Source of the DNA: a virus
Strand: one strand, 5' to 3'
IMG/VR virus record: IMGVR_UViG_3300050821_018287
Span: 1-64,000 of that record
Length of the DNA: 64,000 bases
This document shows, one piece after another, positions 8,513 through 62,473 of this stretch. The notes beneath the pieces were generated by a model. That model was not told the DNA's origin. It did not search any database and saw nothing but the letters and a program-made list of their open reading frames with translations. Made by a program: the position numbers and the translations under genes. Numbering within the stretch: the stretch's first letter is position 1; every line of letters starts with the position of its first letter.

Positions 8513-9453
8513 CAGACGTTCACCACCAGCAAGTAGGAGACGAGCCCATTAGGTACGGTCGTGGGGATGATCGTGTTCTTCACGATGTCGATCGTTCCAC
8601 CCTCCGGCGCGTTGTCGGCGGTGAGCATGGCCTGGTTGTTGACGCACTTCGCGAGGATTCCGAGCCGGCTTCCTCGCCCAAGCGTCGCAACCGCTGCCGA
8701 AGCGCCCTGCGTCGCTTTCGAGACTCCGGAGACGACCGAGAAGGCCACCAGCCCATCCGTCGTCCCGCCGGGGCTGGCCGCGAGGACGTCAACGACCGCC
8801 TGTCCGAATTGGTCCAGTCCGGAGACGGTGAGCGCGCCACCGTCCCATCCGGTTCCGAACGCTGCGCGCACGCACCGCGGAACGTCGGGGTTGGAGAAGC
8901 TCCCTCCCATCACCGCCGACACCTGATTCGCCGGAAAGGCGGCGGCGTTCACCGACACCGAATCGCTGAGGCCCGGGGTGGTGATGGTGACCACCTGGGC
9001 CGCAAAGGAGATCCCCGCCGGAGGAAGCGTCGGGGTGGTGAGAGGAAGCTTGGAGCCGGCCTCGGTGTCCTCGATGAACCAGGGGGAGAGCGGCATCACG
9101 ACATCGCGCGGTCCGCCCGAGGGCTGGATGGCGGTGATGTCGTAGCCGTAGATGCCGGCAAAGGTGTTGCGGAAGTCGGTGGGCTGAAAGGAGAAGGTGA
9201 CGAGCTGGGGGTTGGAGGGGGAGATTTGCCCCAGCGCGTACATAGCCGCAAACGTGTCGCTCGGCTTTTTCTTGACGGTGAGACCAATCGTCCAATTCGT
9301 CAGCCTCACGAAGCTTCCGTTGGGCCGCTGGATCTGGAAGTTGATGGTGAGGGTGATGGACTTCTGGACACGCACAGGCGTGCGCGGGTTTTGTGGGACG
9401 CTCGGCCGGAAGGCAGAGCCGTCGTTGAGGAGCCCGGTAAGGTTGATGACCAA
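8512..9453 (-). CDS. Baseplate or fibre-associated structural protein
   Basis: The 313-residue beta-rich protein has an N-terminal 110-residue part (LTINFQIQRPNGSFVRLTNW ... FAGIYGYDITAIQP) that resembles upper-baseplate BppU-like modules, followed by Gly/Ser/Val-rich strands. It lies between the long fibre and the beta-helix spike genes, so an adaptor or receptor-binding role is plausible. Confidence 0.55.
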   Translation of the reverse strand: MVINLTGLLNDGSAFRPSVPQNPRTPVRVQKSITLTINFQIQRPNGSFVRLTNWTIGLTVKKKPSDTFAAMYALGQISPSNPQLVTFSFQPTDFRNTFAGIYGYDITAIQPSGGPRDVVMPLSPWFIEDTEAGSKLPLTTPTLPPAGISFAAQVVTITTPGLSDSVSVNAAAFPANQVSAVMGGSFSNPDVPRCVRAAFGTGWDGGALTVSGLDQFGQAVVDVLAASPGGTTDGLVAFSVVSGVSKATQGASAAVATLGRGSRLGILAKCVNNQAMLTADNAPEGGTIDIVKNTIIPTTVPNGLVSYLLVVNV

Positions 9454-9456
9454 GAC

Positions 9457-39982: not shown

Positions 39983-40825
39983 TTACGGGAAGTTGATGAC
40001 GTCCCAGTCCACGGTCGAGGTGTCCGCGCCGGAGGAGCTGGTGATGATGAAGGAGCCGTTGCCCGAGCCGGGGGTGCGCGACGCAGCCGCGGCCTTCAGG
40101 TTGCCCTGGGTGCCTCCCACCGTGTTGGTGGTGAGGCCGATCACCGCGCCGGCCGCGAGCCACTGGTTGCTGATGGTGATGGACCCCGCGGTCATCGCCG
40201 CCGACGTCCCCTTCACCGCCGCCGGCATGAAGGCCATCGACGTGGTGCCGATCACCATCGCGCCGTTGGTGGTGATGACCCAACGGCTCTTGTTCCAGAG
40301 AGTGCCTTCCGAAACGCGGATCTCGCTGGCACCGTGGATGAAACCGGTGGCCCAGTCGATCGCGCGCTGGAGCTGCCACGGAGTGGAAGCGGAGCCGAGC
40401 GAGAGGACGTTGTAGACGCCGTTGTCCACGCCCGCCGCGCCGACCGCGAGGAGGACACGATCCCCCACCGCCAACGTCACGCCGTCCTGCGCCGCCAGGG
40501 CGCCGTTCGCGTTCGCCGTCAGCAACCCCAGCACCCCCAACAGGCCGTTGTTGGTGTAGGCGGGGAGGGCGGTGGCGATGGCCGCGCGGACGCCGAGCGC
40601 CGTGCTCGCCGCGCCGCCCGCCACCGGGAAGATGACTCCGGGCTCGAAGTCGGGGACCTGGCTCAGCTCCAGGAAAGTCGAGGGCGGGTTGCCCAGGGCC
40701 GCCTGAACGTTCGCGAGCAAGTCCTGGACGATGACGCTGCCACCCGGCTGAAGGGTCGGGTTGGGGCCGTAGATGTCGGGGATGCCAACGGGGAAGCCAG
40801 TGTGGTTGCGGACGAGCACGGCCAT
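39983..40825 (-). CDS. Fibre- or decoration-like virion protein
   Basis: The 280-residue product has a small N-terminal domain and a module (VTLAVGDRVLLAVGAAGVDN, GVYNVLSLGSASTPWQL) that is frequent in phage tail fibres and spikes ('VLLxxQ...NGxY'). Gly/Thr strands follow. Encoded amid head genes, it may be a head fibre or decoration. Confidence 0.55.
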   Translation of the reverse strand: MAVLVRNHTGFPVGIPDIYGPNPTLQPGGSVIVQDLLANVQAALGNPPSTFLELSQVPDFEPGVIFPVAGGAASTALGVRAAIATALPAYTNNGLLGVLGLLTANANGALAAQDGVTLAVGDRVLLAVGAAGVDNGVYNVLSLGSASTPWQLQRAIDWATGFIHGASEIRVSEGTLWNKSRWVITTNGAMVIGTTSMAFMPAAVKGTSAAMTAGSITISNQWLAAGAVIGLTTNTVGGTQGNLKAAAASRTPGSGNGSFIITSSSGADTSTVDWDVINFP

Positions 40826-50023: not shown

Positions 50024-51544
50024 CTACCTCACCGTCAAGTTGCCGGGGAGCACCGACACCTTCTCCGCGCCCATTCGGATGCCCTCGCGCGCGAACCACG
50101 CCGCCATCATCCGGTCCGGCGTGTGGCCGTCGGGCTTGTAGAACAGCATGTCCTGGATCCACACCGCCACTTCCTTCTCCACCTTCCCCTGCCCCAGCAC
50201 GTTCGGCGGCGGGCACATGATGGGGCCGGTGGAGGGGATGGCCCATTTCCCCTGGCTCATCTCCGCGGCGATGGACTCGATGCCGAATTCCGGGTGCGCC
50301 TTGTTCCGGCCGGTGGTGTGGGCCCGGAGCGGAAGCGCGGCCTGGTTGCGGGTGAACTGGAGGATGAAGTCCTGGGCGGCGTTGTTCTCCACGACGACGA
50401 AGGAGAAGAAGCGCCGGTTGACGTCGATGATGCGATCCACAATCTCCGGCCCGGTCCACTTCCCCGCGAGGATCTCCAGCGGCACCCGCGTCTGGTCCGG
50501 CAAGAGGAGGAGCGTGAAGAACACGGTCCAGTCCGCCGCCGCGTGCTGCTGAACCGCGAGGTCCACCCCCGTGTACGTCTTACACCCGGGGGGCATCGTC
50601 TGGAGCCCGTAGCACTGGAGCCCATTCCACAGGGCGAAATTCTTGAACTTCACGGGCGCGTCCGCCCCCGCGGCGATGCACCGGTCAATCCACTCACGCT
50701 TGAAGCGGGCCTCGGCGTCGTCCCGCGCCAGGCACAGAAACTGCCGCGCGAATTCGATCGGCGGCATGATGGCCTTCTTCGCCGCAATCCGCTCCTCCGG
50801 CCAGGCCGCCTTCCACCGCGGCTTCCCCTCGTTGTCCACGACGGGGTACCGGAAGCTGGACCAGCCCGGCGACTTCGCCAGCCGGTGCATCAAGTCTTCC
50901 GGATGGAAGGCGGTGCCGACGAAGATGATTCGGGCGTCCTTCGTGAGCCGGCCTTCGAGGGTGGCGTGGAACCAGTCGTACAAGTCCTGCATCGCCGTGG
51001 CGGTCCGGCAATTCTCGAAGTCGAGGATGTCGTCGAGGATGAGCCTGTCAATACGGGCGCCGAGGATGGTGCCGTGGACGCCCACCGCCTGGACGCTGGG
51101 ATCCTTCGAGCGGTTCCCCACCACGTAGAGCTGCTGGTTGGTCCAGGGCGTGGCCGGGCGCAGCTCCGGGAAAACCTCGTGCAGCTCCGGGCTCGTCTCG
51201 ATGTACTGCCCCACCATCCTCACCAGCTTCTCCGACTGCTTGTAGGCGTTGGAGACGATGGCGCAGCGCAACGTCGGGTCTTTCCCCAACTCGTGCAGCG
51301 TCCGGGCGATGGAGAGCTGAGTGGTCTTCCCGTGCTCGACCGCGCTCCAGAGGATGAGGCGGTTGTTCTTGTCCGCCAGCTCGTGCCACGCCTGGTGCAC
51401 CGGGGCCTGACGCAAGGGTCGCCCCGTCTTCTCGTCGCGCATGACGGCGGTGACGAAGGAGTTGATGTCGGTCCGCGCGTGGCGGAAGACGAGCGCGCGC
51501 GGGCTTCGGTCCAGCGGTGTCGTGAGGAGCGGGGAGAAGCTCAT
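50024..51544 (-). CDS. Terminase large subunit
   Basis: The 506-residue protein has an ATPase part with Walker A-like SAVEHGKTT (about 67-75) and Walker B LILDDILD (Asp171-Asp172; the usual Asp-Glu is replaced by Asp-Asp). The coupling motif VGTAFHPEDL follows. The RNase-H-like nuclease has TYTGVDLA (Asp328) and VVVENNAAQDF (Glu386). This motor cuts and pumps DNA into the head. It overlaps the preceding small gene by 4 nt. Confidence 0.85.
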   Translation of the reverse strand: MSFSPLLTTPLDRSPRALVFRHARTDINSFVTAVMRDEKTGRPLRQAPVHQAWHELADKNNRLILWSAVEHGKTTQLSIARTLHELGKDPTLRCAIVSNAYKQSEKLVRMVGQYIETSPELHEVFPELRPATPWTNQQLYVVGNRSKDPSVQAVGVHGTILGARIDRLILDDILDFENCRTATAMQDLYDWFHATLEGRLTKDARIIFVGTAFHPEDLMHRLAKSPGWSSFRYPVVDNEGKPRWKAAWPEERIAAKKAIMPPIEFARQFLCLARDDAEARFKREWIDRCIAAGADAPVKFKNFALWNGLQCYGLQTMPPGCKTYTGVDLAVQQHAAADWTVFFTLLLLPDQTRVPLEILAGKWTGPEIVDRIIDVNRRFFSFVVVENNAAQDFILQFTRNQAALPLRAHTTGRNKAHPEFGIESIAAEMSQGKWAIPSTGPIMCPPPNVLGQGKVEKEVAVWIQDMLFYKPDGHTPDRMMAAWFAREGIRMGAEKVSVLPGNLTVR

Positions 51545-51813
51545 TCCAGCGAGCCCACCGTGGGGAGCCGCGGGGAGCACGCCCAACGACGACACAGCGA
51601 CAGCCTCCCCGCCAACGCGTGGGTGTGAGGGATGGCGCCGATGGGGTTGACGTCGGTGTGACGGGAGACGAGGTGGCGAAGGAGATCGTCCGCGTCCTCC
51701 CGCGTCATCTTCATCTCGTTCAGCTTCCCCTCGATCGGCTCCCACCCGCTCATCATCAGGAGCGCATCCAGCTCGTCGAGGAGCGGCGCCGCGAGGACAG
51801 GGTGAAAGCTCAC
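51541..51813 (-). CDS. Small hypothetical protein before terminase
   Basis: The GTG at 51813 with GAGGGG upstream gives 90 residues; a GTG at 51825 is possible. The product contains LLDELDALLMMSGWEPIEGK and a His-rich DDLLRHLVSRHTDVN. It is coupled to the large terminase gene. Unknown. Confidence 0.55.
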   Translation of the reverse strand: MSFHPVLAAPLLDELDALLMMSGWEPIEGKLNEMKMTREDADDLLRHLVSRHTDVNPIGAIPHTHALAGRLSLCRRWACSPRLPTVGSLE

Positions 51814-51814
51814 G

Positions 51815-52489
51815 TCACCCCTCACAGAGCAAGTAGCGATCCGTCTCCGGACGATCCGCGAAGCCCGAGTCAGCGCGCTCCGCGCGGACGTGAACGTGAA
51901 GCTCCTCGCTCACCAAGCCCTTCCGATGCAGAGCCCAGATCGCCCCGCGTACCTCTTCGGCGGTGAACGTCCCGGCGTTGAGCGCCCGCTCCAACACCGC
52001 ATTCGGCGCGCCCAACCGCGCCAAAGCCTCCAGCTCCAGAACGAGCGGGACGCTGGCGCCGGTGGAGCAGAAGACTTTGCCCATGACCTTCTCGAAACCC
52101 TTCGCTCGCTTCGCTACAGCCACTCCCGCCGCCGCCGCCTCGTCACAGCATACGCGGGCATTCTTCCCTGGATCGAACGGAGCCGCGGGCCGAACGAGCG
52201 GGTGGATTCCGGATACGAATCCCCAGCCGGTGCCGGTGGGGAGCTTCGTGTAGCCTGTCTGCTTACACCAATCGGGAACGTGGAACGTGGGTGCTGGAGC
52301 CTCACCGCGGGCGACCCGCCCCAGGTTCGCCTGGTAGACCGGAACGTCCCCCGAGCCCACTACCTTCCAGCCGGCCGCCTTCTCCAGCGCAGCTTTGAGT
52401 GTCCGGATCTTCGAAACCGTGAGGGGCCCAACCCTCAGTTCCAAGTCAGTGGACGGCCCCATTGCCGGTACTTTGAACTGGTACGCCAT
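51815..52489 (-). CDS. Hypothetical protein of the packaging block
   Basis: The 224-residue product has a beta N-terminal half (VPAMGPSTDLELRVGPLTV), a possible substrate-like pocket (TGTGWGFVSGIHPLVRP), scattered Cys, and a C-terminal helix-turn-helix-like part (LERALNAGTFTAEEVRGAIW, then LHRKGLVSEELHV). Overlaps the gene at 52446 by 44 nt. No family recognised. Confidence 0.55.
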   Translation of the reverse strand: MAYQFKVPAMGPSTDLELRVGPLTVSKIRTLKAALEKAAGWKVVGSGDVPVYQANLGRVARGEAPAPTFHVPDWCKQTGYTKLPTGTGWGFVSGIHPLVRPAAPFDPGKNARVCCDEAAAAGVAVAKRAKGFEKVMGKVFCSTGASVPLVLELEALARLGAPNAVLERALNAGTFTAEEVRGAIWALHRKGLVSEELHVHVRAERADSGFADRPETDRYLLCEG

Positions 52490-53438
52490 CGCTTTCCGCC
52501 CCTGCGCCTTCGCGCTCCTTCTTTTCCCTCGCCCGCCGCACGGAGTCTAGCGCCGCCTCCGCCCAAGTCTCCTCCTCCTCCAGCGTCGCCTCCTCCACCA
52601 TCGACAACCCCGCCACCTCGGTCGGCTCCCCCACCCTGAGACGTTCCACCTGAAGCGCGAGCATGACGCTGCGCTCCGCGGCCATCGCGAAGTGGCCCAG
52701 CTCCCGCAAGCATCGGACGATCTGGAGCGGCGTCAAAACCGTCGCCTTGTCCTCGATGAGCGTCTTCAGCCGCGCGGCCAGGGCGCGCCCCTGCTGGAGC
52801 GTCTCCGTGGCCACCGCCACCGCAGTCACCGCTACCTTCCGCCCGAGCTTCGCCCCCACCGCCTCGTCCGCCATCGTCTCCGCGGCGTCCACCTTCGCCT
52901 TGTCGAGCAAGTCCGCCATCCGCCGCTTCGCGTCCTGCTCTGCCTGGGCCAGGCGCGCCGTCGCGGCAGTCTCAGCCTCGGCCGCCTTCTGGAGCGCGAG
53001 CGCCTCCGCCTCCTTCAGCTTCAGCTCCGCGCCGGAGAGCTTCCCCTCGGCGTCAGCCAGGCCCGACTCAGCCAAGGCGCGCAGCTCGGCCGCTTCCTTC
53101 GCCGCGGCGACCCGGAGCGCCTCCGCTTCCGCCTCCGCCTTCTCGCGGATGGCGGTGGCCTCCAGCGCGGCCTCGGAGGTGGCCTTGGCGATGATGCTCT
53201 CACGCAGCCCTTCCGCGGTCAGCTCCTGGCGCGCGGCGCGGAGCGCCAGGTGCTCGTCCTTCAGGACTTGCTCAATGGCGGAGAAGCCGTGTTGGGCCCA
53301 CCCCCGCGCCCAGCCCCGGCGCGCTGTCTCGAAGGCGCAGCCGGCGGCCACCGCGGCGTAGCGATGCTGACCGGGCGCCTCCCGGTACGCCTTCAGGAGC
53401 GCCTCGTAGAATTCTTTCGTGATGGGACGGCGAGCCAC
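52446..53438 (-). CDS. Candidate small terminase with long Ala/Glu coiled coil
   Basis: The 330-residue protein has an N-terminal helix-turn-helix-like part (ITKEFYEALLKAYREAPGQ, then YAAVAAGCAFETARRGWARG) typical of small terminases. Around 160 residues of Ala/Glu/Lys coiled coil (AEAEALRVAAAKEAAELRAL and so on) follow, with an acidic C-terminus. Location three genes before the large terminase supports the call. A GGAAAGG precedes the GTG start. Confidence 0.5.
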   Translation of the reverse strand: MARRPITKEFYEALLKAYREAPGQHRYAAVAAGCAFETARRGWARGWAQHGFSAIEQVLKDEHLALRAARQELTAEGLRESIIAKATSEAALEATAIREKAEAEAEALRVAAAKEAAELRALAESGLADAEGKLSGAELKLKEAEALALQKAAEAETAATARLAQAEQDAKRRMADLLDKAKVDAAETMADEAVGAKLGRKVAVTAVAVATETLQQGRALAARLKTLIEDKATVLTPLQIVRCLRELGHFAMAAERSVMLALQVERLRVGEPTEVAGLSMVEEATLEEEETWAEAALDSVRRAREKKEREGAGAESDGVPVQSTGNGAVH

Positions 53439-53509: not shown

Positions 53510-53824
53510 CTAGGAACGCTTGAGAACCAGCATCACCGCCGCCGCCTTCACCGCCTCCACCAACCCATTCATCGTCATGTGGTACTGCACTTCCCGCTCC
53601 TCCACTTCGAGCCGCCACGGTCTCCACGCCACCCGGGACACCACCAGCAAGCACTCCCCCGTCTTGGTCTCAAAAGTTATGTAAAATTTCCCCAGGCGTT
53701 GCCGCCGCTGCGACTTCCGGGCTGGAACCACTTCCCATCCGCCCGGTGGATACGCGGCGGTGGACACGAGGCCCGTCTCCGCCTTCAGGAGGCCCATCAC
53801 GCGATTTGCTTCATTCTCGGACAA
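53510..53824 (-). CDS. Array gene A1 (subfamily A)
   Basis: A TTG at 53824 with GGAG 8 nt upstream gives 104 residues. It has the subfamily A plan: N-terminal helix (NEANRVMGLLKAETGLV), beta-rich centre with aromatics (GKFYITFETKTGECLLVV), and C-terminal helix (GLVEAVKAAAVMLVLKRS). It is the last gene of the array (53510-58419). No known family; see the findings. Confidence 0.6.
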   Translation of the reverse strand: MSENEANRVMGLLKAETGLVSTAAYPPGGWEVVPARKSQRRQRLGKFYITFETKTGECLLVVSRVAWRPWRLEVEEREVQYHMTMNGLVEAVKAAAVMLVLKRS

Positions 53825-53825
53825 G

Positions 53826-54176
53826 CTACTGGCTCCCTCGGAGCCAAGCCCGCGCAATTCTTACCTTCATCTCCCAGACGACATCCCGGAGCGTCGCATG
53901 CTTCGAGTCGGGCTCATTCCGGTAGACGAGGGAGATGCTCAGCACCCACCGCGCCTTGTCCCGGTAGAGCCAGCCCTCGTGGATGGGGGGAGGCTCCATG
54001 TGGGTGATGCGGATCCACGCAATCGGCCCCACCGTCCCGAAGGTGAAGACGACCGCCCGTGCACCTTTCACTCCTGGCGTCCCAGAGGTTCCAATAACCT
54101 CCGACTGCCAGAAGGTGCCCCGCTCGAACTAAGCCTTCACCGCCTTCAGGACTCTCCCCGCCGAGGTCAGCTTCAT
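53826..54176 (-). pseudogene. Array gene A2, interrupted by in-frame TAG at codon 16
   Basis: The frame from ATG 54176 to TAG 53826 is 116 codons long except for one internal TAG (54129-54131). Codons before and after it align to the neighbouring A3: SAGRVLKAVKA, stop, FERGTF against SARRVIRVVLARFEPGTF. The rest has the family plan and ends VVWEMKVRIARAWLRGSQ. Either the gene is broken, or only a shorter product from the GTG at 54071 (81 aa) is made. TAG is used as a normal stop elsewhere, so recoding is unlikely. Confidence 0.65.
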
Positions 54177-54583
54177 CCCACCTCCAGGGCCCGCCGCGCC
54201 ATCTGCGCTTTCATTTCTTGTACAACTTCTGAAAGCCGACGGTGGTAGGTGCTGGGACCGTCCACTACCACCGATCTCTCCCCCATCCCAGCGTCCGGGT
54301 TGCGTTTGAGCCCGGAGAGGTTCCACCCCTTCAAGAAGCCCACCGGGCTCTCCCACGTCACGAAGCTCCCCATTCTCCCCTTTGGATCCAGCCGGTTGAG
54401 AAGGAAGCGCGCCCACCCATCCCAGGACGGGAGGGTGAAGGAGATCGCCCGCGGAGAAGCCTCTCCCCCACCCTTCGACTGGCGCTCCCGAAGCGGGGGA
54501 ACCACCTGCCCATGCCGGAAGGTCCCCGGCTCGAAGCGGGCCAGCACCACCCGAATGACGCGGCGCGCCGAGGAGGGTGTCAT
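54173..54583 (-). CDS. Array gene A3 (subfamily A)
   Basis: The ATG at 54583 overlaps the previous stop. The 136-residue product has the N-terminal helix SARRVIRVVLARFEPGTF, a Trp/Phe-rich beta centre (FTLPSWDGWARFLLNRLD), and the C-terminal helix LSEVVQEMKAQMARRALEVG. It is the closest relative of the interrupted A2. Confidence 0.6.
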   Translation of the reverse strand: MTPSSARRVIRVVLARFEPGTFRHGQVVPPLRERQSKGGGEASPRAISFTLPSWDGWARFLLNRLDPKGRMGSFVTWESPVGFLKGWNLSGLKRNPDAGMGERSVVVDGPSTYHRRLSEVVQEMKAQMARRALEVG

Positions 54584-54879
54584 AGGCCCGACAGTGCCCG
54601 GTACGCGAGGTGGGCCTGAATCGCCTGGACAGCCTCCAGAAGCGTCCGAACGGGGATGTTGGGCTCCGCGTACCGGAACGCGCTCACAATCCAACAGCGG
54701 CCCGCCAAGAGCTTCTGGCGCTGCAACGTGTAGACGACCTCCCCGCTCGTCCCGGCCACCGGAAATTCGAGCGTCTCCCCCGCCCGGTTCGCCCACCACC
54801 GCACGCTCGGGTGCGCGAAGGCTCCCGAGAGCCGCCTCTGCACCGCGTACACCACCCGCCAGGCCGAAGCGTGGGTCAC
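54580..54879 (-). CDS. Array gene A4 (subfamily A)
   Basis: A GTG at 54879 overlaps the upstream stop. The 99-residue product starts with ASAWRVVYAVQRRLSGAF and ends with LLEAVQAIQAHLAYRALSGL, the same helices as A3, around a short beta part (EVVYTLQRQKLLAGRCWIVS). Confidence 0.6.
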   Translation of the reverse strand: MTHASAWRVVYAVQRRLSGAFAHPSVRWWANRAGETLEFPVAGTSGEVVYTLQRQKLLAGRCWIVSAFRYAEPNIPVRTLLEAVQAIQAHLAYRALSGL

Positions 54880-55214
54880 GGCCTCTCCAAGCACATCCGC
54901 GCCAGCTCCGCCTGGACGAGCCCGACGACCTGGGAGAGGTTCAAAATCCAGCCCGTCGGATCCTCCGAGGTCCAATGGAGCTGTCGGACGGAGTGGCGCA
55001 CCTGCCACACCCGGCGGTACTTCGGGCTGTTGGAGGGAAAGAGCTGGGGGAAGATGTGCCTCGGGAGCCGAATGCGCCGAAGGATGAAGACGCAGGGATC
55101 CCCCGGAGCCTGGACGTGCACGGTCAAGTCGTGCCAGTCCGAGCTGGACAAGACGCACCGAAAGCCCGGCCCGAGGGCACGGTTCAGCACCTCCATCACC
55201 AACCGCTCCGTCAC
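54876..55214 (-). CDS. Array gene A5 (subfamily A)
   Basis: A GTG at 55214 overlaps the upstream stop. The 112-residue product has ERLVMEVLNRALGPGF, a beta centre (DLTVHVQAPGDPCVFILRRI) and the C-terminal helix LSQVVGLVQAELARMCLERP. Function unknown. Confidence 0.6.
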   Translation of the reverse strand: MTERLVMEVLNRALGPGFRCVLSSSDWHDLTVHVQAPGDPCVFILRRIRLPRHIFPQLFPSNSPKYRRVWQVRHSVRQLHWTSEDPTGWILNLSQVVGLVQAELARMCLERP

Positions 55215-55588
55215 GACAGCCTCAGAACGTGCTCGGCCACGCGTGCCTGAAGCTCGCAGTGCAGCTCCCGAAGGTGCTCGAACCGCCAAGGTACGAGCCG
55301 CCGTCCTTTCCCGAAGGGACCTTCATCCACGTACAGCCACCAAGAGGTGCCCCGCTCCTTGTCCACTCCGGGCCGGAAGGGGCGCCGATGGATCTCGAAG
55401 CGCTGCTCGGGCGTCCGGAATTCCACCGCAGGACGGATGATGCCAGTGCCGGGGATCGTCGAGTGGAGCTGGACCTGGACACACACCGTCCCGTCGTTGC
55501 GCTGCTCCACCCCAGCCCACCCCGCGTCGGAGGAGCCGAGAAGCTTGAGGACGAGCTGCATCGTTCGGTGGGCGCAACGCAGTGTCAT
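55211..55588 (-). CDS. Array gene A6 (subfamily A)
   Basis: The ATG at 55588 overlaps the upstream stop. The 125-residue product has CAHRTMQLVLKLLGSSD, beta strands (TVCVQVQLHSTIPGTGIIRP, GTSWWLYVDE) and the C-terminal helix HLRELHCELQARVAEHVLRL. Function unknown. Confidence 0.6.
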   Translation of the reverse strand: MTLRCAHRTMQLVLKLLGSSDAGWAGVEQRNDGTVCVQVQLHSTIPGTGIIRPAVEFRTPEQRFEIHRRPFRPGVDKERGTSWWLYVDEGPFGKGRRLVPWRFEHLRELHCELQARVAEHVLRLS

Positions 55589-55869
55589 TCCCCGCGCCTC
55601 AGCGCCCGATGCGCCTGATCCGCCTGAATCAGCTCGACCGCGGTGCGGAGACTCCGAGCGAAGTCGGCCAACCAAGGTGCCAACGTTCCCGTCTGCTGCT
55701 CCACCATCCACCCCCGGTGGCCCCGAACGATGGCCTTGTACAAGAGAAACTTCACCTTGGAGACGTACAGGATGAAACGCCCGTACCCGTCCGAGTGGAC
55801 CAGCTCCCCGCGAAGCTTGTCCGACATCAGGTGCACGCACCGAGCCTGCCTCGCGCGGGTCCAGCTCAA
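55585..55869 (-). CDS. Array gene A7 (subfamily A)
   Basis: A TTG at 55869 overlaps the upstream stop (TTGA). The 94-residue product has ARQARCVHLMSDKLRGEL, then strands (GRFILYVSKVKFLLYKAIVR) and the C-terminal helix SLRTAVELIQADQAHRALRR. Function unknown. Confidence 0.6.
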   Translation of the reverse strand: MSWTRARQARCVHLMSDKLRGELVHSDGYGRFILYVSKVKFLLYKAIVRGHRGWMVEQQTGTLAPWLADFARSLRTAVELIQADQAHRALRRGE

Positions 55870-56177
55870 TCCAGCACCGTCGGATGCAAGTCGTGATTCT
55901 TCAGCACCCTCAGCGCCTCCGCCGCGCGCACCCGACGCTCCGCCCACTTCTTCGCCGCCTCCCGCGTCTTGTAGCGGCGCGCTGGTGGAATCGGCCATCC
56001 CCACCTCCAACCCTGCCGCTGGAAAAGGACGAGGAAGCGCCCCGTCACGAAATGGTAGGTGGACTCGTAGATGGTAGCGATGGCCCGCCAGGGCTCGAAC
56101 GGTCGCTCTCCGCGATCCCCGTCCAACAGGTACTCCTTGCCGCCGACCTCGCCCAAGCTGTTCCACTGAAGGTTCAC
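55866..56177 (-). CDS. Array gene B1 (subfamily B)
   Basis: A GTG at 56177 overlaps the upstream stop. The 103-residue product lacks the N-terminal helix and has strands with many aromatics (TYHFVTGRFLVLFQRQGWRW) and then the helix YKTREAAKKWAERRVRAAEA that typifies subfamily B. Function unknown. Confidence 0.6.
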   Translation of the reverse strand: MNLQWNSLGEVGGKEYLLDGDRGERPFEPWRAIATIYESTYHFVTGRFLVLFQRQGWRWGWPIPPARRYKTREAAKKWAERRVRAAEALRVLKNHDLHPTVLD

Positions 56178-56491
56178 CGCTCCGACTCCAACGCGTGTCG
56201 AACCTCCGCGGCCATCTTCCCGTGGATCCGCCTCAGCCAGACCGCTCTCCACTTCTTCCAGCTCTCCGGCGATTCGACCGCGTAGTACACCCCGCCCTTT
56301 GGACCCATCGGCGCACCGAGAAGCGCGCCGAAGGTGTGGGCCGATCGCATCATGCTCGGAGAGAGCCGAGCGTAGTGGATGGGTCCTTTGAAAACGCCGC
56401 GGATCTCCAGCCACCAATCGAGCGGCATGTAGCAGCCGGACGGCGCAGGGGGCTTCGCCGGCACCCGAAGGGACGCGCTCCAGTCCGTCAA
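56174..56491 (-). CDS. Array gene B2 (subfamily B)
   Basis: A TTG at 56491 overlaps the upstream stop. The 105-residue product has aromatic strands (PLDWWLEIRGVFKGPIHYAR) and a C-terminal helix SPESWKKWRAVWLRRIHGKM. Function unknown. Confidence 0.6.
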   Translation of the reverse strand: MTDWSASLRVPAKPPAPSGCYMPLDWWLEIRGVFKGPIHYARLSPSMMRSAHTFGALLGAPMGPKGGVYYAVESPESWKKWRAVWLRRIHGKMAAEVRHALESER

Positions 56492-56856
56492 GGCGCGTAC
56501 CCCACTGCGCTCGCCTTGATCCGCGCGCGGAAGTCGTCGTCCGACTCCCCCGGCAACCGAGACATCCCGTACAGGATGCCCGCGACGTTGAGCGCGTCCC
56601 CGGTCGTCGTCGGGGACAGAATGTCGTCGTCCCCGTCCTTGAGCCGCGCCTCCGCGTCTTCGGCAAGGATCTGCCGGTCCACCTCCGCGCGAGCCTCTTC
56701 GGGCGTGGCGAAGGTCTCGCCTGTGTCCACCACCACCCAGTTGTCGCCGATCTGGAAGACCGCGCGGAGCGGCTTCGGATCGTCTTGCCGGCGCCACCCA
56801 CCCATCGCGAGTGACACCCACTTCCCGATCCGCTGTTGGTTGAAGAAGTACATCAC
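56488..56856 (-). CDS. Array gene B3 (subfamily B, with C-terminal extension)
   Basis: A GTG at 56856 overlaps the upstream stop. The 122-residue product has strands (AVFQIGDNWVVVDTGETF), the helix FATPEEARAEVDRQILAEDA, and an extra 45 residues ending in RLPGESDDDFRARIKASAVG. That acidic/Arg motif recalls phage baseplate J proteins; significance unknown. Confidence 0.6.
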   Translation of the reverse strand: MMYFFNQQRIGKWVSLAMGGWRRQDDPKPLRAVFQIGDNWVVVDTGETFATPEEARAEVDRQILAEDAEARLKDGDDDILSPTTTGDALNVAGILYGMSRLPGESDDDFRARIKASAVGYAP

Positions 56857-57134
56857 ACGCCTCGCTGGAGAAGGATCCGCGCCATGTGGGCGCGCACGCT
56901 ATCCTCCAGGTACTTCTGCGCCGCCTGCATCGTCGAGAAGACCGACGAAACTTCGATGTCCGGCTTCGCGTCCTCACCGACGAACACGTGAGCCACGTAC
57001 GTCCCGACCTTCGCGATGTCGATCCGCCCGAAGCGCACCCCCACCGTCGAGGGTGGGATGTTGAAGAAGAGGAGGTAGCGCTGCGTGCCCCCCGAGCGAT
57101 CGTAGCGGTACTCCAACATGAACGGGTCATCCAT
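56853..57134 (-). CDS. Array gene B4 (subfamily B)
   Basis: The 93-residue product starts at ATG 57134, with GCCCGAGG upstream. Strands (TQRYLLFFNIPPSTVGVRF, VGTYVAHVFVGED) are followed by the helix FSTMQAAQKYLEDSVRAHMA. Function unknown. Confidence 0.6.
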   Translation of the reverse strand: MDDPFMLEYRYDRSGGTQRYLLFFNIPPSTVGVRFGRIDIAKVGTYVAHVFVGEDAKPDIEVSSVFSTMQAAQKYLEDSVRAHMARILLQRGV

Positions 57135-57468
57135 CCTCGGGCCCCTTCATTTTGCGAAGCGCCGCCTCGGCCATCCTCGCCAGCTTCTCCTTCTCCACCT
57201 CCTCCTTCGCCTTGTCGAGGCTCTGGAAGTAGCCGATGCGACACTCGGCGCTGAGGGCTCCCTGGAACACGAAGCCCGCCCAGCCGAAGGAGGCGATGCT
57301 GCTCATGTGGTGCGCGCGGAAGCAGGAAGGGTAGACCACCCCGTCGTAGGCGGGACGACCGCCCAACCCGAGCGTCGCCCGGTGCATCTCCCCTGTGCGG
57401 GCCACTCCGAGGCGGTCCACCAGCTTCTCCTGCATGTTGTAGGCTGCCGACTCCCAGTTGAAGGTCAC
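57127..57468 (-). CDS. Array gene B5 (subfamily B)
   Basis: A GTG at 57468 overlaps the upstream stop (an earlier GTG at 57474 is possible). The 113-residue product has strands and His/Cys (VVYPSCFRAHHMSSIASFGW) and the C-terminal helix FQSLDKAKEEVEKEKLARMA. Function unknown. Confidence 0.6.
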   Translation of the reverse strand: MTFNWESAAYNMQEKLVDRLGVARTGEMHRATLGLGGRPAYDGVVYPSCFRAHHMSSIASFGWAGFVFQGALSAECRIGYFQSLDKAKEEVEKEKLARMAEAALRKMKGPEDG

Positions 57469-57857
57469 GGCCACACCAGCGGACCGTTCAGATTCTCCCC
57501 CAACGCCGCTCGCGCGAGCCGGGAGAGGACTTCCGCCTCAGCCGCATCCTGCGCGATTTTGGAGGTGCTGTAGCCGGAGCCGATGATCTGGAGGTCCCCG
57601 ATGTTGACCCCGTGGAGTCTCTGGATCCACTCCCCGTCGTCGTTCTTGTAGGAGTCGAAGCGCTCTCCCGCGCCCCAAAGCCCGAACGCCGCCCAATACC
57701 CGCCACCCTGCTCTGCGATGACCGCGAGCCCCCGCCAAAGCGCCCGATGCTTTTCGTCCTCTGGGCGCTCCTGCCCACCGATGAAAACGAAGCCGCCCGA
57801 AAGCCCGTAGTGCTCCGGCGAGCCGTACAACCGCGTTTCGAGCCATTCGAGCGCCAT
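57465..57857 (-). CDS. Array gene B6 (subfamily B)
   Basis: The ATG at 57857 shares a base with the upstream stop (TGATG). The 130-residue product has a Gly/Tyr/Trp-rich beta part (GGYWAAFGLWGAGERFDSYK) and the helix SKIAQDAAEAEVLSRLARAA. It is the longest member of the B group without an extension. Confidence 0.6.
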   Translation of the reverse strand: MALEWLETRLYGSPEHYGLSGGFVFIGGQERPEDEKHRALWRGLAVIAEQGGGYWAAFGLWGAGERFDSYKNDDGEWIQRLHGVNIGDLQIIGSGYSTSKIAQDAAEAEVLSRLARAALGENLNGPLVWP

Positions 57858-58150
57858 CAGTCCACCGATGGATCCCCAAGCCGCCACCGCGCGCTCATGA
57901 TGGCGTCCTCCCGCTCCCGCTCCTTCGTTTCCTCCTCCACCCAATCCATTGCCGCTTCGACTGTGGTGAAGAGGCGCCGAGACGGCTCCCGACGCAAAGA
58001 AGGGTGCAGCCGGCCCTCGAAGCGCGGCATGCGCAGAAGCGACTTCGGATCCGAAACAGGCCAGACCGAGCCGACCGAGCCCGAGTATTGCACCGTCTCC
58101 GAAGCGACGAGGTAGCGCGCCTCCGGGTTGATCTGCCACTCCAGCTTCAT
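57857..58150 (-). CDS. Array gene B7 (subfamily B)
   Basis: The ATG at 58150 overlaps the upstream stop. The 97-residue product has strands (EARYLVASETVQYSGSVG) and the long helix LFTTVEAAMDWVEEETKERE. Function unknown. Confidence 0.6.
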   Translation of the reverse strand: MKLEWQINPEARYLVASETVQYSGSVGSVWPVSDPKSLLRMPRFEGRLHPSLRREPSRRLFTTVEAAMDWVEEETKEREREDAIMSARWRLGDPSVD

Positions 58151-58419
58151 GTTGGTGCCCCCAAGCGATCCCTCGCGTCCTCTGCCTTGATGACCAGCTC
58201 CGCCTCCGCCCGCGCCTCTTCGATCGTCTCGTACTCCTCGTCGAACATCCTCACCCGCCGAAGCCGGCCGCTGAGACAAAGCTTCCACTTCCCCTCCTGC
58301 GTCTTGAAGAAAGCGACGTTGAGGTCATGCCCGTTAACCTGCACTGGCCGGTCCGTCGGAAGGTACCAGCCCTGAAAGTACAACTCATCCTCCCCGAGGT
58401 AGACGAGCCCCGACGACAC
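58147..58419 (-). CDS. Array gene B8 (subfamily B), first gene of array
   Basis: The 90-residue product shows the B plan most clearly: strands (GLVYLGEDELYFQGWYLP, NVAFFKTQEGKWKLCLSG), then YETIEEARAEAELVIKAEDA. It begins the array downstream of the methylase gene at 58438. Confidence 0.6.
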   Translation of the reverse strand: MSSGLVYLGEDELYFQGWYLPTDRPVQVNGHDLNVAFFKTQEGKWKLCLSGRLRRVRMFDEEYETIEEARAEAELVIKAEDARDRLGAPT

Positions 58420-58437: not shown

Positions 58438-58971
58438 CTAGGGGGAAACGCCCCGCCAGATGACGTGGACGTTGGGGAAGGTGGCACAGTCGCGACCCAC
58501 CCCCAACGGGTTCCCCGGCGCCCCATGTGTAACGCGCCCCTTCAGGAATCGGAGCTGAGGCCCTCCGGCCAGCTCCCGGTAGGGCTCGATGTACTTGTGC
58601 CACCAGGCGCGATCCGTCCAGGAGGGGAGGTGCGCGACGACGAGCTTGCACCCGAGGCTCAGCTCGCGCATCGCCTTCTCCAACCACTCGCCGATGTTGG
58701 AGTAGGGCGGGTTGAGGAAAACGCGGTGGCCAACCCACGACTGGACGAGCCCGTTGTCCGCCTCTCCGTACCACCGTCCGATGAGCTGCGCACTGAAGCA
58801 CTCCGCCGAGGCGCACGGGTCCAACGTGAAGCGAAACTCGTCGTGGAGGGGAATGAGCACCTCGCGCGGAGTGAATTGGTAGTCGAGATCCGTCACCAAC
58901 GGGATCGCCGGCTCCAGGAGCGAGAGCTGCTCCCCCTTCAGGATCGGGCCAGGGTTTGCTGTGTCACCCAC
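58438..58971 (-). CDS. DNA N6-adenine methyltransferase (phage Dam-like)
   Basis: The 177-residue protein has FTLDPCASAECFSAQL (phage N6-methylase family start, D-P-C), the catalytic motif VFLNPPYSNIGEWLEKAM (N-P-P-Y), VVAHLPSWTDRAWWH, and LRFLKGRVTHGA. This size and motif order is that of phage adenine methylases, which protect DNA from host restriction. A GTG at 58971 overlaps the previous gene by 34 nt. Confidence 0.8.
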   Translation of the reverse strand: MGDTANPGPILKGEQLSLLEPAIPLVTDLDYQFTPREVLIPLHDEFRFTLDPCASAECFSAQLIGRWYGEADNGLVQSWVGHRVFLNPPYSNIGEWLEKAMRELSLGCKLVVAHLPSWTDRAWWHKYIEPYRELAGGPQLRFLKGRVTHGAPGNPLGVGRDCATFPNVHVIWRGVSP

Positions 58972-59168
58972 GCGACTGCCTCCTCAACAACGTCCTTCCG
59001 GTAGAGGATCTCCCTCGTCCCGTCATTCCCCCGGCGCGTCATCCTCATCGCCGACAGCTCCTCCGGGCTCATCCACGACTGCCGATACAACGCCGCTCGC
59101 AACGAGAAGACGCTGACCTCGTACACCGCCGCTGCAACCGCCAGCGTCATCCACTCGATTTCAGCCAT
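58938..59168 (-). CDS. Small helix-turn-helix-like protein
   Basis: The ATG at 59168 gives 76 residues with a helical N-terminus (AVAAAVYEVSVFSLRAALYR) and REILYRKDVVEEAVAWV, resembling excisionase or MerR-type small DNA-binding proteins. It overlaps both neighbours. May regulate the block or bind DNA for the methylase. Confidence 0.5.
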   Translation of the reverse strand: MAEIEWMTLAVAAAVYEVSVFSLRAALYRQSWMSPEELSAMRMTRRGNDGTREILYRKDVVEEAVAWVTQQTLARS

Positions 59169-59689
59169 GGCCTGACGATCGCCAAGAGGTCTTCCGGACT
59201 TTGGCCCGCGTTCAGCTCCAGCCGCCTCTCGAAAGTCTCGGCGAAGCGCGCGGATTTCGTCTTGCGGCCCTTCACCCAGGACGGATTCTGATTGCTGCCC
59301 CGACGCAACCGGCGCCGGTGCACCTCCTCCTCGTCCGCGAAAAGGAGTACGCACCTCAAGACCGTCGGTGGGCAGCTCAGCAGAACGTTGCGATTGTCGA
59401 AGTAGCGGACCACCTTCGCGTTGGAGAAGCGATCCCCGTCGAAGATGGTGAGCGTGCAACGCTGCGCGAGAAACTCCGACCAGAAGTCCAGCGCCTTCCC
59501 GACTCCGTTGTAGGGTACGGTGTCCGCGCCGTCGAAAGTCGCGCCCGTGTAATGGCCTCCGGCACAGACCGTAGGACCCACCGTCCACTTCGGCTTAGAG
59601 ACGATCGTCGAGTTGGACTCCAGGAGTCCCTTCACCAGCGTCGTCTTCCCCACGCCCGGCTCACCCACCACCCAGAGGATCTGGTTCAC
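59147..59689 (-). CDS. P-loop kinase, candidate modified-base kinase
   Basis: The 180-residue protein has a Walker A loop WVVGEPGVGKTTLVKGL, a second motif CTLTIFDGDRFSNAKV and an Arg-rich lid (EEEVHRRRLRRGSNQ, then GRKTKSARFAE). It looks like a small nucleotide or DNA-base kinase. In phage thymine-hypermodification clusters such kinases phosphorylate hydroxymethyl bases in DNA. The neighbouring TET/JBP-like and transferase-like genes favour that role. Confidence 0.6.
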   Translation of the reverse strand: MNQILWVVGEPGVGKTTLVKGLLESNSTIVSKPKWTVGPTVCAGGHYTGATFDGADTVPYNGVGKALDFWSEFLAQRCTLTIFDGDRFSNAKVVRYFDNRNVLLSCPPTVLRCVLLFADEEEVHRRRLRRGSNQNPSWVKGRKTKSARFAETFERRLELNAGQSPEDLLAIVRPWLKSSG

Positions 59690-60111
59690 GGTTGCCTCCG
59701 CCGGGAGTCGAAGCCCTGTTTGAAAGGAGACTTTCTACGTTCGTCCGGACCCGCCTTGAACGCTCCCGGCGACGCCTGCCGGCCACGATTTGCCGCCGAG
59801 ATCTTAGCCCGCGCCTCTGGTGAATGCTTTCGCCCGCGCTGCGCTGTGCTCATCCGCAGCCGCGTCTCCGGTCGAATGACCTTCCCCCGATGGTGGTGAC
59901 TCTGGTGGCAAGACCGGTGGCACAAAGCCCAATTGTTCGGCGTGTCGTTGTCGTGGTTGTGGTCCTTGTGGTGAACGACGGGCTCCAACGGATCGCGAAA
60001 GGGCGGGCCTACCTCCACGACTCCGCCGCAAAAGAAACAGACCCAAGGACCGAAGCCCATCGTTCGAAAGAACAGCCACCAACCCGAGAACGTATGCCGC
60101 TTACCGGACAA
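59686..60111 (-). CDS. HNH homing endonuclease with NUMOD-type repeats
   Basis: The TTG at 60111 lies 6 nt after AAAGGAG, giving 141 residues. The HNH core is WVCFFCGG ... VVHHKDHNHDNDTPNNWALC then HRSCHQSHH. Two NUMOD3-like segments follow (RLRMSTAQRGRKHSPEARAK, ISAANRGRQASPGAF), as in homing nucleases of T4-like phages. It sits within the modification block and could have carried DNA there. Confidence 0.75.
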   Translation of the reverse strand: MSGKRHTFSGWWLFFRTMGFGPWVCFFCGGVVEVGPPFRDPLEPVVHHKDHNHDNDTPNNWALCHRSCHQSHHHRGKVIRPETRLRMSTAQRGRKHSPEARAKISAANRGRQASPGAFKAGPDERRKSPFKQGFDSRRRQP

Positions 60112-61030
60112 GGAGGGCTCCTTTGTCTCGGTAGACCTTGAGACGCTCAGAATCGACCCCTGACCAACCACCCAGCTCTCCGAGATAGTCCACAGGAAAC
60201 GATTCGAGCCGAGCCTGCTGCATACGGTCGCCACACTCAGCGACGTGGCTCATTTGGAGATCGATGTCCGTCCCGGAATAGTAATGCCCGCGACAGAGAG
60301 AGTTGAAGTCGCAAAGCGCGGTCTCGAATTGGTCGAGCCCGGAGAAGAGAACCGCCTTCAGCGCCTCAGCGTAAGCTTGCTTCTGGATGTCAGGATTCGC
60401 AAGACACTCCTGGATGGAAAGCCCGCACACCCGCGCGAGCCCCGCGTAAGGCCCCGTCTCCTCCCCACCGCGCGGTTCCCCAATGTCCGGAGCGACGATG
60501 AGCGCGCCGTGAACGTTTTTAAGAAGGTCCGACCACTTGTAGCTAGCCCAGCCCCCGTTGCCCGGGATCTGCTGAAAAGCGAAGCGCGCTCGGTCCCAAC
60601 CCTGAGTGCTCGAAACGCTGTCGCAACAAGCCTCCACCCACCGATCGAATTGTCCGCCTCGGGTGAAGTGGAAGGCGTAGTTGATGTGGAGGCGCGCCTT
60701 GTCGTTGCCGCGGAAGCCGCGCCGCTCCACTCCCGTCGGGAGACCCAAAAGTGGCTCGTGGATCTCCGTCGGCTCCGGATACTTCGTCCAAACGATCTCC
60801 GCCGAACGGAGGTTGTAGAAGGTGACGTAGAGGAACGTCCTCCACAGCGCGGTGTTCAGCGGAAGCTTCTCCAGTTCGTAGAGCCGGCGCAGCACCGGAT
60901 ACGTCGGGTCCAAGTCGCCTGACCAGAGCTGCGTCTTGGAGAAAGTGCAGAAGTCGACCCACAAATGCTCACGCGTGATCGCTCGCTCGCCGAAGAAGAC
61001 AAACTGCTTCCCCTTGTCGGCCATCGGCAT
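60101..61030 (-). CDS. Amino-acid:DNA transferase / aGPT-pyrophosphorylase-like protein
   Basis: The 309-residue protein has an N-terminal helical part (YPVLRRLYELEKLPLNTALW, then RTFLYVTFYNLRSAEIVWTK), GNGGWASYKWSDLLKNVHG, TGPYAGLARVCG and ALCDFNSLCRGHYYSGTDID. These recall enzymes that attach amino acids or polyamines to phosphorylated hydroxymethyl bases in phage DNA (aGPT-PPlase/AADT and HMUDK-helical group). Family match is by motif memory. It shares one base with the dioxygenase stop (TGATG). Confidence 0.5.
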   Translation of the reverse strand: MPMADKGKQFVFFGERAITREHLWVDFCTFSKTQLWSGDLDPTYPVLRRLYELEKLPLNTALWRTFLYVTFYNLRSAEIVWTKYPEPTEIHEPLLGLPTGVERRGFRGNDKARLHINYAFHFTRGGQFDRWVEACCDSVSSTQGWDRARFAFQQIPGNGGWASYKWSDLLKNVHGALIVAPDIGEPRGGEETGPYAGLARVCGLSIQECLANPDIQKQAYAEALKAVLFSGLDQFETALCDFNSLCRGHYYSGTDIDLQMSHVAECGDRMQQARLESFPVDYLGELGGWSGVDSERLKVYRDKGALLVR

Positions 61031-61842
61031 CACGGCTTCTTGCCTCGCTTCTCGGAGCGGATCGTACCCAGTCTCCGCGCCCGGTCCAACTCCTCGGCCG
61101 GCGACTGGCAATGGCACATCCCCCGAAGCGAGTAGAAAACGACGGTGTAACGGTAGGAGCGCGGGGAGAGACTCCGGATGGGTGTCACCCCGTGGAGGAG
61201 GGAAGACCCGTCGAAGAGGATGAGCGAGCCGGGAATGAACTTGAAACCAATGCCGAGCTGAGGCACCGCGAGGTGCCCGCCGTCAATGTCCTTCGTGAAG
61301 GCAAACATCGCACTCCAGAAGCCCGGGAAGTTGCCCGCGTCGCGGTGGTAATAGAGCTGGTTGTTCCAGTTTGCGATCCCCGAGGTGTAGATGCTCCCCG
61401 GTAGCACCCACCCCGGCTGCACCTTCTCCCAAATGAGCTGGGCCTGCGCCACGTACTGCTCCGGCACCTCCTTCTCAAAGTACCGGGAGGCGAGCGACGC
61501 GAGAGAGCAGATCTTCGCATGCGCCTCCGGGTTCTCCATCGCCACCACCGAGCAATAGCAGTAGTCCTGGCGCAGAGGATTGCGGGGCATGAAGCCCACG
61601 GTCCTGTCCTGGTGTCGCAGACCCGACGTCCGGTAGGCGCGGTGGTAGCGAAGCGCTTGAAACGCCTCCACCATCCCCGAAAGGTTTTCTTCCGGCTGGA
61701 GGTAGGCGATGCGGAGGGTGTTCTCCTCGTAGATGAGGGTGGGCTTGTCGATGAGCACCGCGAAGTCTTGCTCATGCGCGGGGACCTTCCGCGCGAGCGC
61801 CTTCACGTCGACTTCAATTCGCTGGAGTCGTACGTGTTGCAT
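61030..61842 (-). CDS. TET/JBP-like 2-oxoglutarate/Fe(II) dioxygenase
   Basis: The 270-residue protein has an N-terminal part with SGLRHQDRTVGFMPRNPLRQ, then WNNQLYYHRDAGNFPGFW (metal ligands His166 and Asp168), AMFAFTKDIDGGHLAVPQLG, LILFDGSSLLHGVTPI (His217) and RSYRYTVVFYS (2OG-binding Arg, 228 or 231). This is the TET/JBP pattern, whose members hydroxylate 5-methylcytosine or thymine in DNA. It overlaps the ParB-like gene by 29 nt and is followed directly by the transferase-like gene. Confidence 0.7.
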   Translation of the reverse strand: MQHVRLQRIEVDVKALARKVPAHEQDFAVLIDKPTLIYEENTLRIAYLQPEENLSGMVEAFQALRYHRAYRTSGLRHQDRTVGFMPRNPLRQDYCYCSVVAMENPEAHAKICSLASLASRYFEKEVPEQYVAQAQLIWEKVQPGWVLPGSIYTSGIANWNNQLYYHRDAGNFPGFWSAMFAFTKDIDGGHLAVPQLGIGFKFIPGSLILFDGSSLLHGVTPIRSLSPRSYRYTVVFYSLRGMCHCQSPAEELDRARRLGTIRSEKRGKKP

Positions 61843-62473
61843 CGAACAAGTCCAGCAGCTTGAGGACGGCCTCGGTATGGCTCTGGACCCCATGGGCTTC
61901 CATCACCGCTTTCAGCCGCGCCAACGCCACGTCATAGGCCGCACCCTCGAAGTAGAGGACGACTTGCTTGATGTTGGCGGAGAGAAAACCCGGGAGAAGC
62001 TCCGCCGGAGTCGCCCCCACCTCCGTCTTCGGAGGCTCCACCGAGCGGAGGAGCGCGTCCACATCCGTCGGCTCGTAGCCAGTGCCAGCGAGGAGATCCC
62101 CCGTGTTGAGCCGGCCCAGCATCTCCGCCAGCGCCTTCTCGTCCCACCCGCCGACCTCGGTGAGCCGGTTGGAGGCGATGACATACGCTTCGGCCTCGGT
62201 GTCGTCCTTCGAAGCCCACCCGGTCAGGACTGGAACGAACCACCGGCCGTCCCTCACCTCCACCCCCGCTGGCACCTCACCCCGCTTCTTCAGCTCCAGA
62301 AGCGCCTCCCGCCGGCCGTGCCCCGCCACCATCCGCCCCGTCCGCTGGTCCACCACGATCGGCTCGGTAAAGCCGAAGCGGCGAATGGAAGCCTGGATGT
62401 CGGCCTGTGCGTGAGTCTTCGGGTTGCGCTCGGCCGTCTTGAGCGAATCCAAGTCTGTCGCGACGATCTTCAT
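61814..62473 (-). CDS. ParB-like nuclease-domain protein
   Basis: The 219-residue protein has a ParB/Srx-type domain: DLDSLKTAERNPKTHAQADI, then RRFGFTEPIVVDQRTGRMVA, the box GHGRREALLELK, and AYVIASNRLTEVGGWDE. It lacks the helix-turn-helix arm of partition ParB. Such proteins accompany DNA methylases and base modification enzymes in phages, possibly as DNA-guiding or CTP/ATP-binding subunits. Confidence 0.8.
   Translation of the reverse strand: MKIVATDLDSLKTAERNPKTHAQADIQASIRRFGFTEPIVVDQRTGRMVAGHGRREALLELKKRGEVPAGVEVRDGRWFVPVLTGWASKDDTEAEAYVIASNRLTEVGGWDEKALAEMLGRLNTGDLLAGTGYEPTDVDALLRSVEPPKTEVGATPAELLPGFLSANIKQVVLYFEGAAYDVALARLKAVMEAHGVQSHTEAVLKLLDLFDATRTTPAN

Follow-up and report, generated by a model that had tools for sequence, protein, structure and literature searches.

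A tandem array of fifteen small, highly divergent genes between a predicted DNA hypermodification module and the terminase of an uncultured phage

Locus organization

The GC-rich genome of this uncultured phage carries a single run of 15 minus-strand open reading frames (ORFs), each of 90-136 codons, spanning 58419-53510 of the window (the whole 64,000-nucleotide stretch of DNA that was analysed). The array comes immediately after a predicted DNA hypermodification module and before the terminase, and an HNH gene is found near it in the accessory zone. The genes are given below, with E-values from leave-one-out profile tests for the array members (g1 to g15).

61030..61893, minus: TET/JBP dioxygenase (PF12851, E=4e-11; phage homologues annotated as Tet-like or thymidine hydroxylase)
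60101..61117, minus: amino acid:DNA transferase (ADDT; PF18724, E=1.7e-8)
59147..59689, minus: P-loop nucleotide kinase (PF18751, E=7e-7)
58438..58971, minus: Dam-type DNA adenine methyltransferase (PF05869, E=5e-15)
58147..58419, minus: g1, B-type, 90 aa, pI 4.8 (E=2e-6)
57857..58150, minus: g2, B-type, 97 aa (E=0.28, weak)
57465..57857, minus: g3, B-type, 130 aa (E=0.05)
57127..57468, minus: g4, B-type, 113 aa (E=0.016)
56853..57134, minus: g5, B-type, 93 aa (E=0.13; AlphaFold, five strands and C-terminal helix)
56488..56853, minus: g6, B-type with C-terminal extension, 121 aa, pI 4.5 (E=2e-7)
56503..56622, minus: g6 C-terminal extension (RLPGESDDDFRARI), baseplate J/wedge-like motif (phrog_5857, E=8e-4)
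56174..56491, minus: g7, 105 aa, relationship to the other 14 not demonstrable (not found by leave-one-out)
55866..56177, minus: g8, B-type, 103 aa, pI 10.1 (E=8e-5)
55585..55869, minus: g9, A-type, 94 aa, pI 10.6 (E=0.016, top-ranked)
55211..55588, minus: g10, A-type, 125 aa, weakest A member (E=2.1, 4th)
54876..55214, minus: g11, A-type, 112 aa (E=0.27, 2nd)
54580..54879, minus: g12, A-type, 99 aa (E=0.016, top-ranked; AlphaFold, helix, strands and C-terminal helix)
54173..54583, minus: g13, A-type, 136 aa, pI 11.4 (E=2e-6; phmmer to g14, E=5e-7)
53826..54176, minus: g14, A-type, TAG-interrupted (E=7e-4; profile match spans the stop)
53510..53824, minus: g15, A-type, 104 aa, pI 9.7 (E=0.25, 2nd)
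52446..53438, minus: coiled-coil protein in the small-terminase position (no PHROG or Pfam match; same position in L007, a distant relative)
50024..51745, minus: terminase large subunit (phrog_38, E=2e-61)

In order, the array junctions are overlaps of 4, 1, 4, 8, 1, 4, 4, 4, 4, 4, 4, 4 and 4 nt, followed by a 1-nt gap between g14 and g15. GC by codon position is coding-like in all 15 ORFs (about 0.58-0.71, 0.39-0.56 and 0.78-0.89 for the three positions), and every frame was called by a codon model trained on the window's other genes. The ORF coordinates and codon-position GC thus bear out the first-pass annotation, which had described 15 small tandem genes with overlaps of 1-8 nt and one single-base gap. 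The array would form one translationally coupled run, and we infer co-transcription and the timing of its expression. Searches inside it for DNA repeats of note, promoter-like sites and terminator-like sites found none. In the neighbouring module, the combination of TET/JBP dioxygenase, P-loop kinase, ADDT and Dam methyltransferase is predicted from sequence to hypermodify DNA.

Relatedness and predicted folds

At the profile level, the members divide into seven A-type (g9-g15) and seven B-type proteins (g1-g6 and g8), with g7 outside both. In leave-one-out tests ranked among 884 genome ORFs, with L007 members included in the B-type profile, g9, g12, g13 and g14 were each the top A-type match and g10, g11 and g15 were marginal (ranks 2-4 among the 884 ORFs). 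Recovery of the B-type members was clear for g1, g6 and g8 and weaker for g4, g3, g5 and g2, and g7 was not found by the B-type profile. The earlier claim of subfamilies of seven and eight therefore stands for the seven A-type genes and must be reduced to seven for the B-type, since the leave-one-out comparison supports the kinship of most members, marginally so for g10, g11 and g15, and does not extend to g7. The subdivision itself holds, as hhalign finds no match between the A and B profiles (probability 1.2%); their HMM cross-scores lie weakly above controls (p ~1e-3). Most array members probably descend from one or two ancestral mini-proteins, diverged almost beyond recognition, and the array may represent one family or two related families. 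Identity in the A-type alignment is 34% and 31% in the helices versus 21% in the sheet, while in the B-type alignment helix and sheet differ little (27% versus 26%).

AlphaFold models of g12 (A-type; pLDDT 81.6, pTM 0.72) and g5 (B-type; pLDDT 80.0, pTM 0.70) both contain a five-stranded antiparallel sheet and a C-terminal helix, to which the A-type adds an N-terminal helix. The two models, one of each type, share the order of their elements, in agreement with the initial view of high divergence with the plan kept. That no known family would be recognised was likewise confirmed in Pfam, NCBIfam, PHROG and the PDB, apart from the g6 tail: ten members scanned per library gave no credible Pfam or NCBIfam match, PHROG held no credible family for any array member except through that tail, and neither model had a significant fold match in the PDB. 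The likeness to DUF2188 (PF09954) consists of small size and a weak match of g1 (E=0.18), which at 12.4 bits falls below the Pfam gathering threshold of 22 bits. Among BFVD models, uncharacterised phage mini-proteins such as A0A6J5M0A2, A0A2Z4Q9N7 (Gordonia phage Trine) and A0A097EYM5 (mycobacteriophage Carcharodon) have a similar predicted sheet-plus-helix fold, the best match reaching E=3.8e-3 with a TM of 0.56 and none reaching E<=0.001. A C-terminal A..RL motif common to otherwise unrelated small proteins was considered as a general tag and rejected, being enriched in G003 (11 versus a shuffled mean of 1.9) and not in G000 (4 versus 2.3); many of the 11 are array members.

Some of these features would suit nucleic-acid-binding accessory factors in transcription, replication or packaging, with a different site for each. 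The A model's best PDB resemblance is to PUR-alpha (E=0.14) and the B model weakly resembles a WGR domain (E=0.35), neither significantly; the A-type proteins are basic, and arrays at the same locus in two related phages, described below, look HTH-like or zinc-ribbon-like. We nevertheless regard this role as rather unlikely, as six B-type members are neutral or acidic (pI 4.5-7.8), and no significant fold match, motif or structure demonstrates nucleic-acid binding.

The g6 product is chimeric, with approximately residues 71-119 matching phage baseplate J/wedge proteins. Its tail matches baseplate and tail proteins by tblastn (E 4e-3 to 0.05), over some 34-50 residues that include the RLPGESDDDFRARI motif and not over a full-length J/wedge domain. 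This motif, the adjoining terminase, the conserved A-type N-terminal helix and the strong basicity of g8 and all A-type members (pI 9.7-11.4) could point to small structural, packaged or injected virion proteins, which would be produced alongside the late genes, incorporated into or attached to the particle by their shared helices and delivered with the DNA. However, g1, g2, g3 and g6 are acidic, the capsid genes lie away from the array at ~31-46 kb, and a T4-type (gp21-type) [LI]xE cleavage site after the N-terminal helix is missing from residues 1-45 of all seven A-type members, bar a single chance occurrence in g13. We consider such a virion role unlikely, and the terminase-side location, high A-type pI and g6 tail equally allow virion-associated or nucleic-acid-binding roles.

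Copies beyond the array and related phages

Members of the family also occur outside the array. In the phage's own genome, the B profile identifies further copies outside its training set at 80039-80245 (E=7e-7) and 81094-81294 (E=2e-5). In L007, whose terminase is 53% identical, ~12 B-profile members surround the terminase genes: nine upstream, between the Dam methylase and the terminase as in the window, and three just downstream. No clear one-to-one orthology links the window and L007 copies.

In two other phages of this terminase clade, G053 and L008, the corresponding locus is occupied by tandem arrays of different mini-proteins, which look zinc CxxC (zinc-ribbon-like) or HTH-like; the G053 array adjoins two TET-associated glycosyltransferases. 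The small genes of G061 (L118) are not claimed as an array, no pair being similar at E<0.02. A search with a TerL alignment returned 65 loci, and a single TerL query one short relative only. Nucleotide comparison with 50,697 phages gave no match, tblastn in phages found nothing for g1 or for one L007 member and only E>=0.2 for g13, and the B-type profile found nothing below E=0.2 in 27 further sheath-sharing records. A genome-contig scan turned up two proteobacterial MAG contigs, both distant, and did not assign a host.

Within the array, the reading frame of g14 is interrupted by a TAG at codon 16 (54129-54131). Recoding of TAG was rejected because it ends 21 of the 95 called window genes and also closes g14 and g15 themselves; the nonsense codon suggests that this copy, at least, may be dispensable. 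The interrupted g14, the lack of clear orthology with L007 and the accessory zone with its nearby HNH gene might indicate near-neutral leftovers of tandem duplication in a recombination-prone region, with most copies redundant and drifting. This is distinctly improbable, given that 14 of the 15 frames remain uninterrupted and keep a coding-type GC3 even though they have diverged so extremely, that fold order and helices are conserved, and that different phages repeatedly show expansions at this one locus.

Discussion

We tentatively favour the view that the array is tandemly expanded and fast-diverging and encodes small proteins, diversifying as a set, that interact with the host or its defences. 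Each copy would retain the scaffold and its terminal helix or helices but vary the surface of the sheet, and would thereby meet a different host factor. Because a hypermodification module lies next door, the likeliest targets would be nucleases and further defence systems acting against DNA that is modified or foreign, in analogy to the T4 internal proteins and the duplicated anti-CRISPR genes discussed below; we infer the link to host defence, the targets and the mechanism alike. The coupled coding ORFs, profile relatedness, shared fold order and extra copies argue for this view, as do the greater similarity of A-type helices than sheet, the hypermodification module and the recurring arrays at the locus. 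Against it, no array member is known to resemble an anti-defence protein, early anti-defence genes do not usually lie next to the terminase, g14 bears a nonsense codon, and B-type helix and sheet identities are nearly equal.

Similar to the array, the internal proteins of T4 (Ip1, Ip2 and Ip3) are several small, highly variable proteins in one genome of a modified-DNA phage, and each of the three disables one GmrSD system, without cross-protection (PMC12373910). Their targets, modification-dependent nucleases, are of the class proposed here. The array differs in having no sequence link to them and in placing fifteen genes in one run beside the terminase. The virion reading would overlap in purpose with our preferred one, being T4 Ip-like, and differs in delivery. 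In rudiviruses, AcrID1 genes are duplicated and functional diversification has been suggested (PMC11065993), offering another case of clustered paralogues of a small protein, in this instance anti-defence. These belong to archaeal viruses, however, with no sequence similarity known, and divergence within the array appears far greater.

A bolder extension of the host-interaction view, which we hold to be a long shot of much the same standing as the virion role, is that the site between the DNA-modification genes and the terminase is a hotspot of the clade. Each phage would expand another scaffold (sheet-plus-helix, zinc CxxC or HTH-like) into a coupled tandem array, each copy neutralising a separate modified-DNA nuclease or sensor, as a counter-defence repertoire resembling antigenic variation. 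If the host-interaction view is right, a single operon would supply a natural collection of related proteins that evolved to act on many host targets, and this collection could help both to uncover further defence systems and to follow how a single scaffold acquires new targets. Such collections could then be located in uncultured phages by a simple genomic rule, namely that different arrays return at one and the same locus.

Organization of the array

The virus record totals 92,257 bases at 66% G+C, with the window covering bases 1-64000. On the minus strand, from 58419 to 53510, we recovered the tandem run of 15 small genes claimed by the first-pass annotation: 15 ORFs (g1 to g15 in that order), with neighbors sharing 1-8 nt, most commonly as a 4-nt ATGA, GTGA or TTGA overlap, and a single base separating g14 from g15. 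All 15 frames have coding-like GC at codon positions 1, 2 and 3, and all are predicted on the minus strand, some from a later start, by a codon model trained on the window genes other than the array. No promoter- or terminator-like site was found anywhere inside the array sequence, which is consistent with a single coupled message. Codon 16 of g14 is an in-frame TAG (54129-54131). As homology to g13 is present on both sides of it, this TAG is either a nonsense codon or an error in the sequence; in the window, TAG serves as an ordinary stop, terminating 21 of the 95 called genes.

Relatedness and predicted folds

Pairwise similarity among the array products is slight, with only g13/g14 (E 2e-7) and g1/g6 (E 1e-4) standing out and several further pairs at E 1e-3 to 1e-2. 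The first-pass annotation had made all 15 genes kin, in subfamilies of seven and eight, and had proposed profile comparison and structure prediction as checks. Leave-one-out profiles, scored against the 884 ORFs of the phage's own genome, were judged a fairer test than pairwise comparison. Among the A-type genes (g9-g15), g13, g14, g9 and g12 were each ranked first by the profile from the remaining members, and g11, g15 and g10 came second to fourth with poor E-values. For the B-type genes (g1-g6 and g8), whose profiles included members from the related phage locus L007, g1, g6 and g8 were clear, g2, g3, g4 and g5 were weaker, and g7 was missed among the same 884 ORFs. By these profiles, the proposed kinship holds for most of the genes and cannot be demonstrated for g7. 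The B profile also picked up copies on which it had not been trained, two in the phage's own genome at about 80-81 kb, with E 7e-7 and 2e-5, and three ORFs directly downstream of the terminase in the L007 record; this is good evidence against a likeness from composition alone. The A and B profiles were not linked by hhalign (probability 1.2%), and their HMM cross-scores slightly exceed those of control proteins (p about 1e-3).

Structure prediction with AlphaFold2 was run on one product of each type. The g12 model, from seven A sequences (pLDDT 81.6, pTM 0.72), has a helix (3-17), five strands (27-31, 34-43, 46-57, 60-68 and 75-77) and a second helix (80-97), and the g5 model, from twenty B sequences with the doubtful g7 among them (pLDDT 80.0, pTM 0.70), has strands at 6-14, 17-25, 33-42, 45-52 and 59-66 followed by a helix (69-91). 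Except for the N-terminal helix of the A type, the elements come in the same order in both models, and, judged from that order, the two types likely have a common fold. Searches against the PDB gave nothing significant for either model (best E 0.14 for A and 0.2 for B). The viral models closest to the B model belong to phage proteins that are uncharacterised, the best at E 3.8e-3.

Arrays in related phages

A terminase-based search recovered 65 related loci. The most informative relative, L007 (a 93.8-kb record; terminase 53% identical), has nine B-type genes between its Dam (DNA adenine methyltransferase) and terminase genes and three additional ones just past the terminase on the downstream side. 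Two further phages of the terminase clade have different mini-proteins in tandem at the same position:

L008, 12-4928: zinc-type array with the VTCxxC motif, upstream of the terminase
L120 (genome G053), 8018-11493: small-gene array with the WIxxEEAA segment, upstream of the terminase and near two TET-associated glycosyltransferases

The former comprises at least 10 genes (pairwise E to 7e-14) and the latter ten, most with an HTH-like WIxxEEAA start (pairwise E to 2e-7); "zinc" and "HTH" are motif-based labels, with no significant family matches. Since most other relatives examined have no array, it is a recurrent, non-universal feature of the clade. The named phages searched gave no match.

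The window's own record holds a second cluster of small genes (80042-81363, 84122-84328 and 84960-85265), where two copies, and probably a third, are B-type and others are zinc-type mini-proteins with the VTCxxC motif; one zinc-type protein closes with a helix of the same kind (ATDARRRLGG). Three clustered VTCxxC mini-proteins of the L008 kind are found at 2022-2712 (plus strand). The product of 1462-2025 (plus strand) is rich in Asp-Ala-Gly and Cys and presumably resembles myxobacterial secreted proteins, a hint of a Myxococcota host. The product of 39983-40825 (minus strand) has a K1-lyase_C domain (PF24146, E 1e-9) and is probably a structural protein.

Probable DNA modification neighborhood

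The genes upstream of the array, also on the minus strand, include one that is SbcC-like, a TET/JBP dioxygenase (PF12851, E 4e-11), an amino acid:DNA transferase (ADDT; PF18724, E 2e-8), a P-loop nucleotide kinase (PF18751, E 7e-7), an HNH gene and a Dam methylase.

58438-61893, minus strand: probable module for hypermodification of DNA bases (TET/JBP dioxygenase, ADDT, P-loop kinase, Dam methylase)

Phage homologs of the dioxygenase are annotated as Tet-like or thymidine hydroxylase, so its PHROG label, queuine tRNA-ribosyltransferase, is probably wrong. A homolog of the kinase is present in the L007 phage, which also encodes an ADDT (E 9e-22), a PLP-dependent enzyme and radical SAM enzymes; the glycosyltransferases of G053 match at E 7e-32 and 8e-46, and another relative, G061, has 7-deazaguanine synthesis genes. 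Judged from known enzyme roles, the window phage and these relatives probably carry modified DNA bases. Such bases are open to attack by type IV restriction enzymes.

Proposed role

Neither the clustering of small accessory genes nor the duplication of inhibitors is new in kind. In the literature searched, with partial coverage, we found no earlier description of the array protein family, no such extreme divergence inside one operon, and no precedent for the modification/array/terminase layout with a scaffold differing by phage. A working precedent for a variable set of small inhibitors is T4: it has three small internal proteins, and each of them disables a single subtype of the modification-dependent nuclease GmrSD, without cross-protection (PMC12373910); the duplicated anti-CRISPR of rudiviruses is a second (PMC11065993). 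A search for the T4-type cleavage signal in the seven A-type products gave nothing beyond one chance site, in g13. Computed pI is strongly basic for the A type (9.7-11.4) and mixed for the B type (4.5-10.1), so the products may bind nucleic acid or be packaged with the DNA. The class of target is a guess from context. The best reading is that the array would supply many copies of a small inhibitor or host-interacting protein, varied from one to the next, with a fixed scaffold and a divergent sheet.
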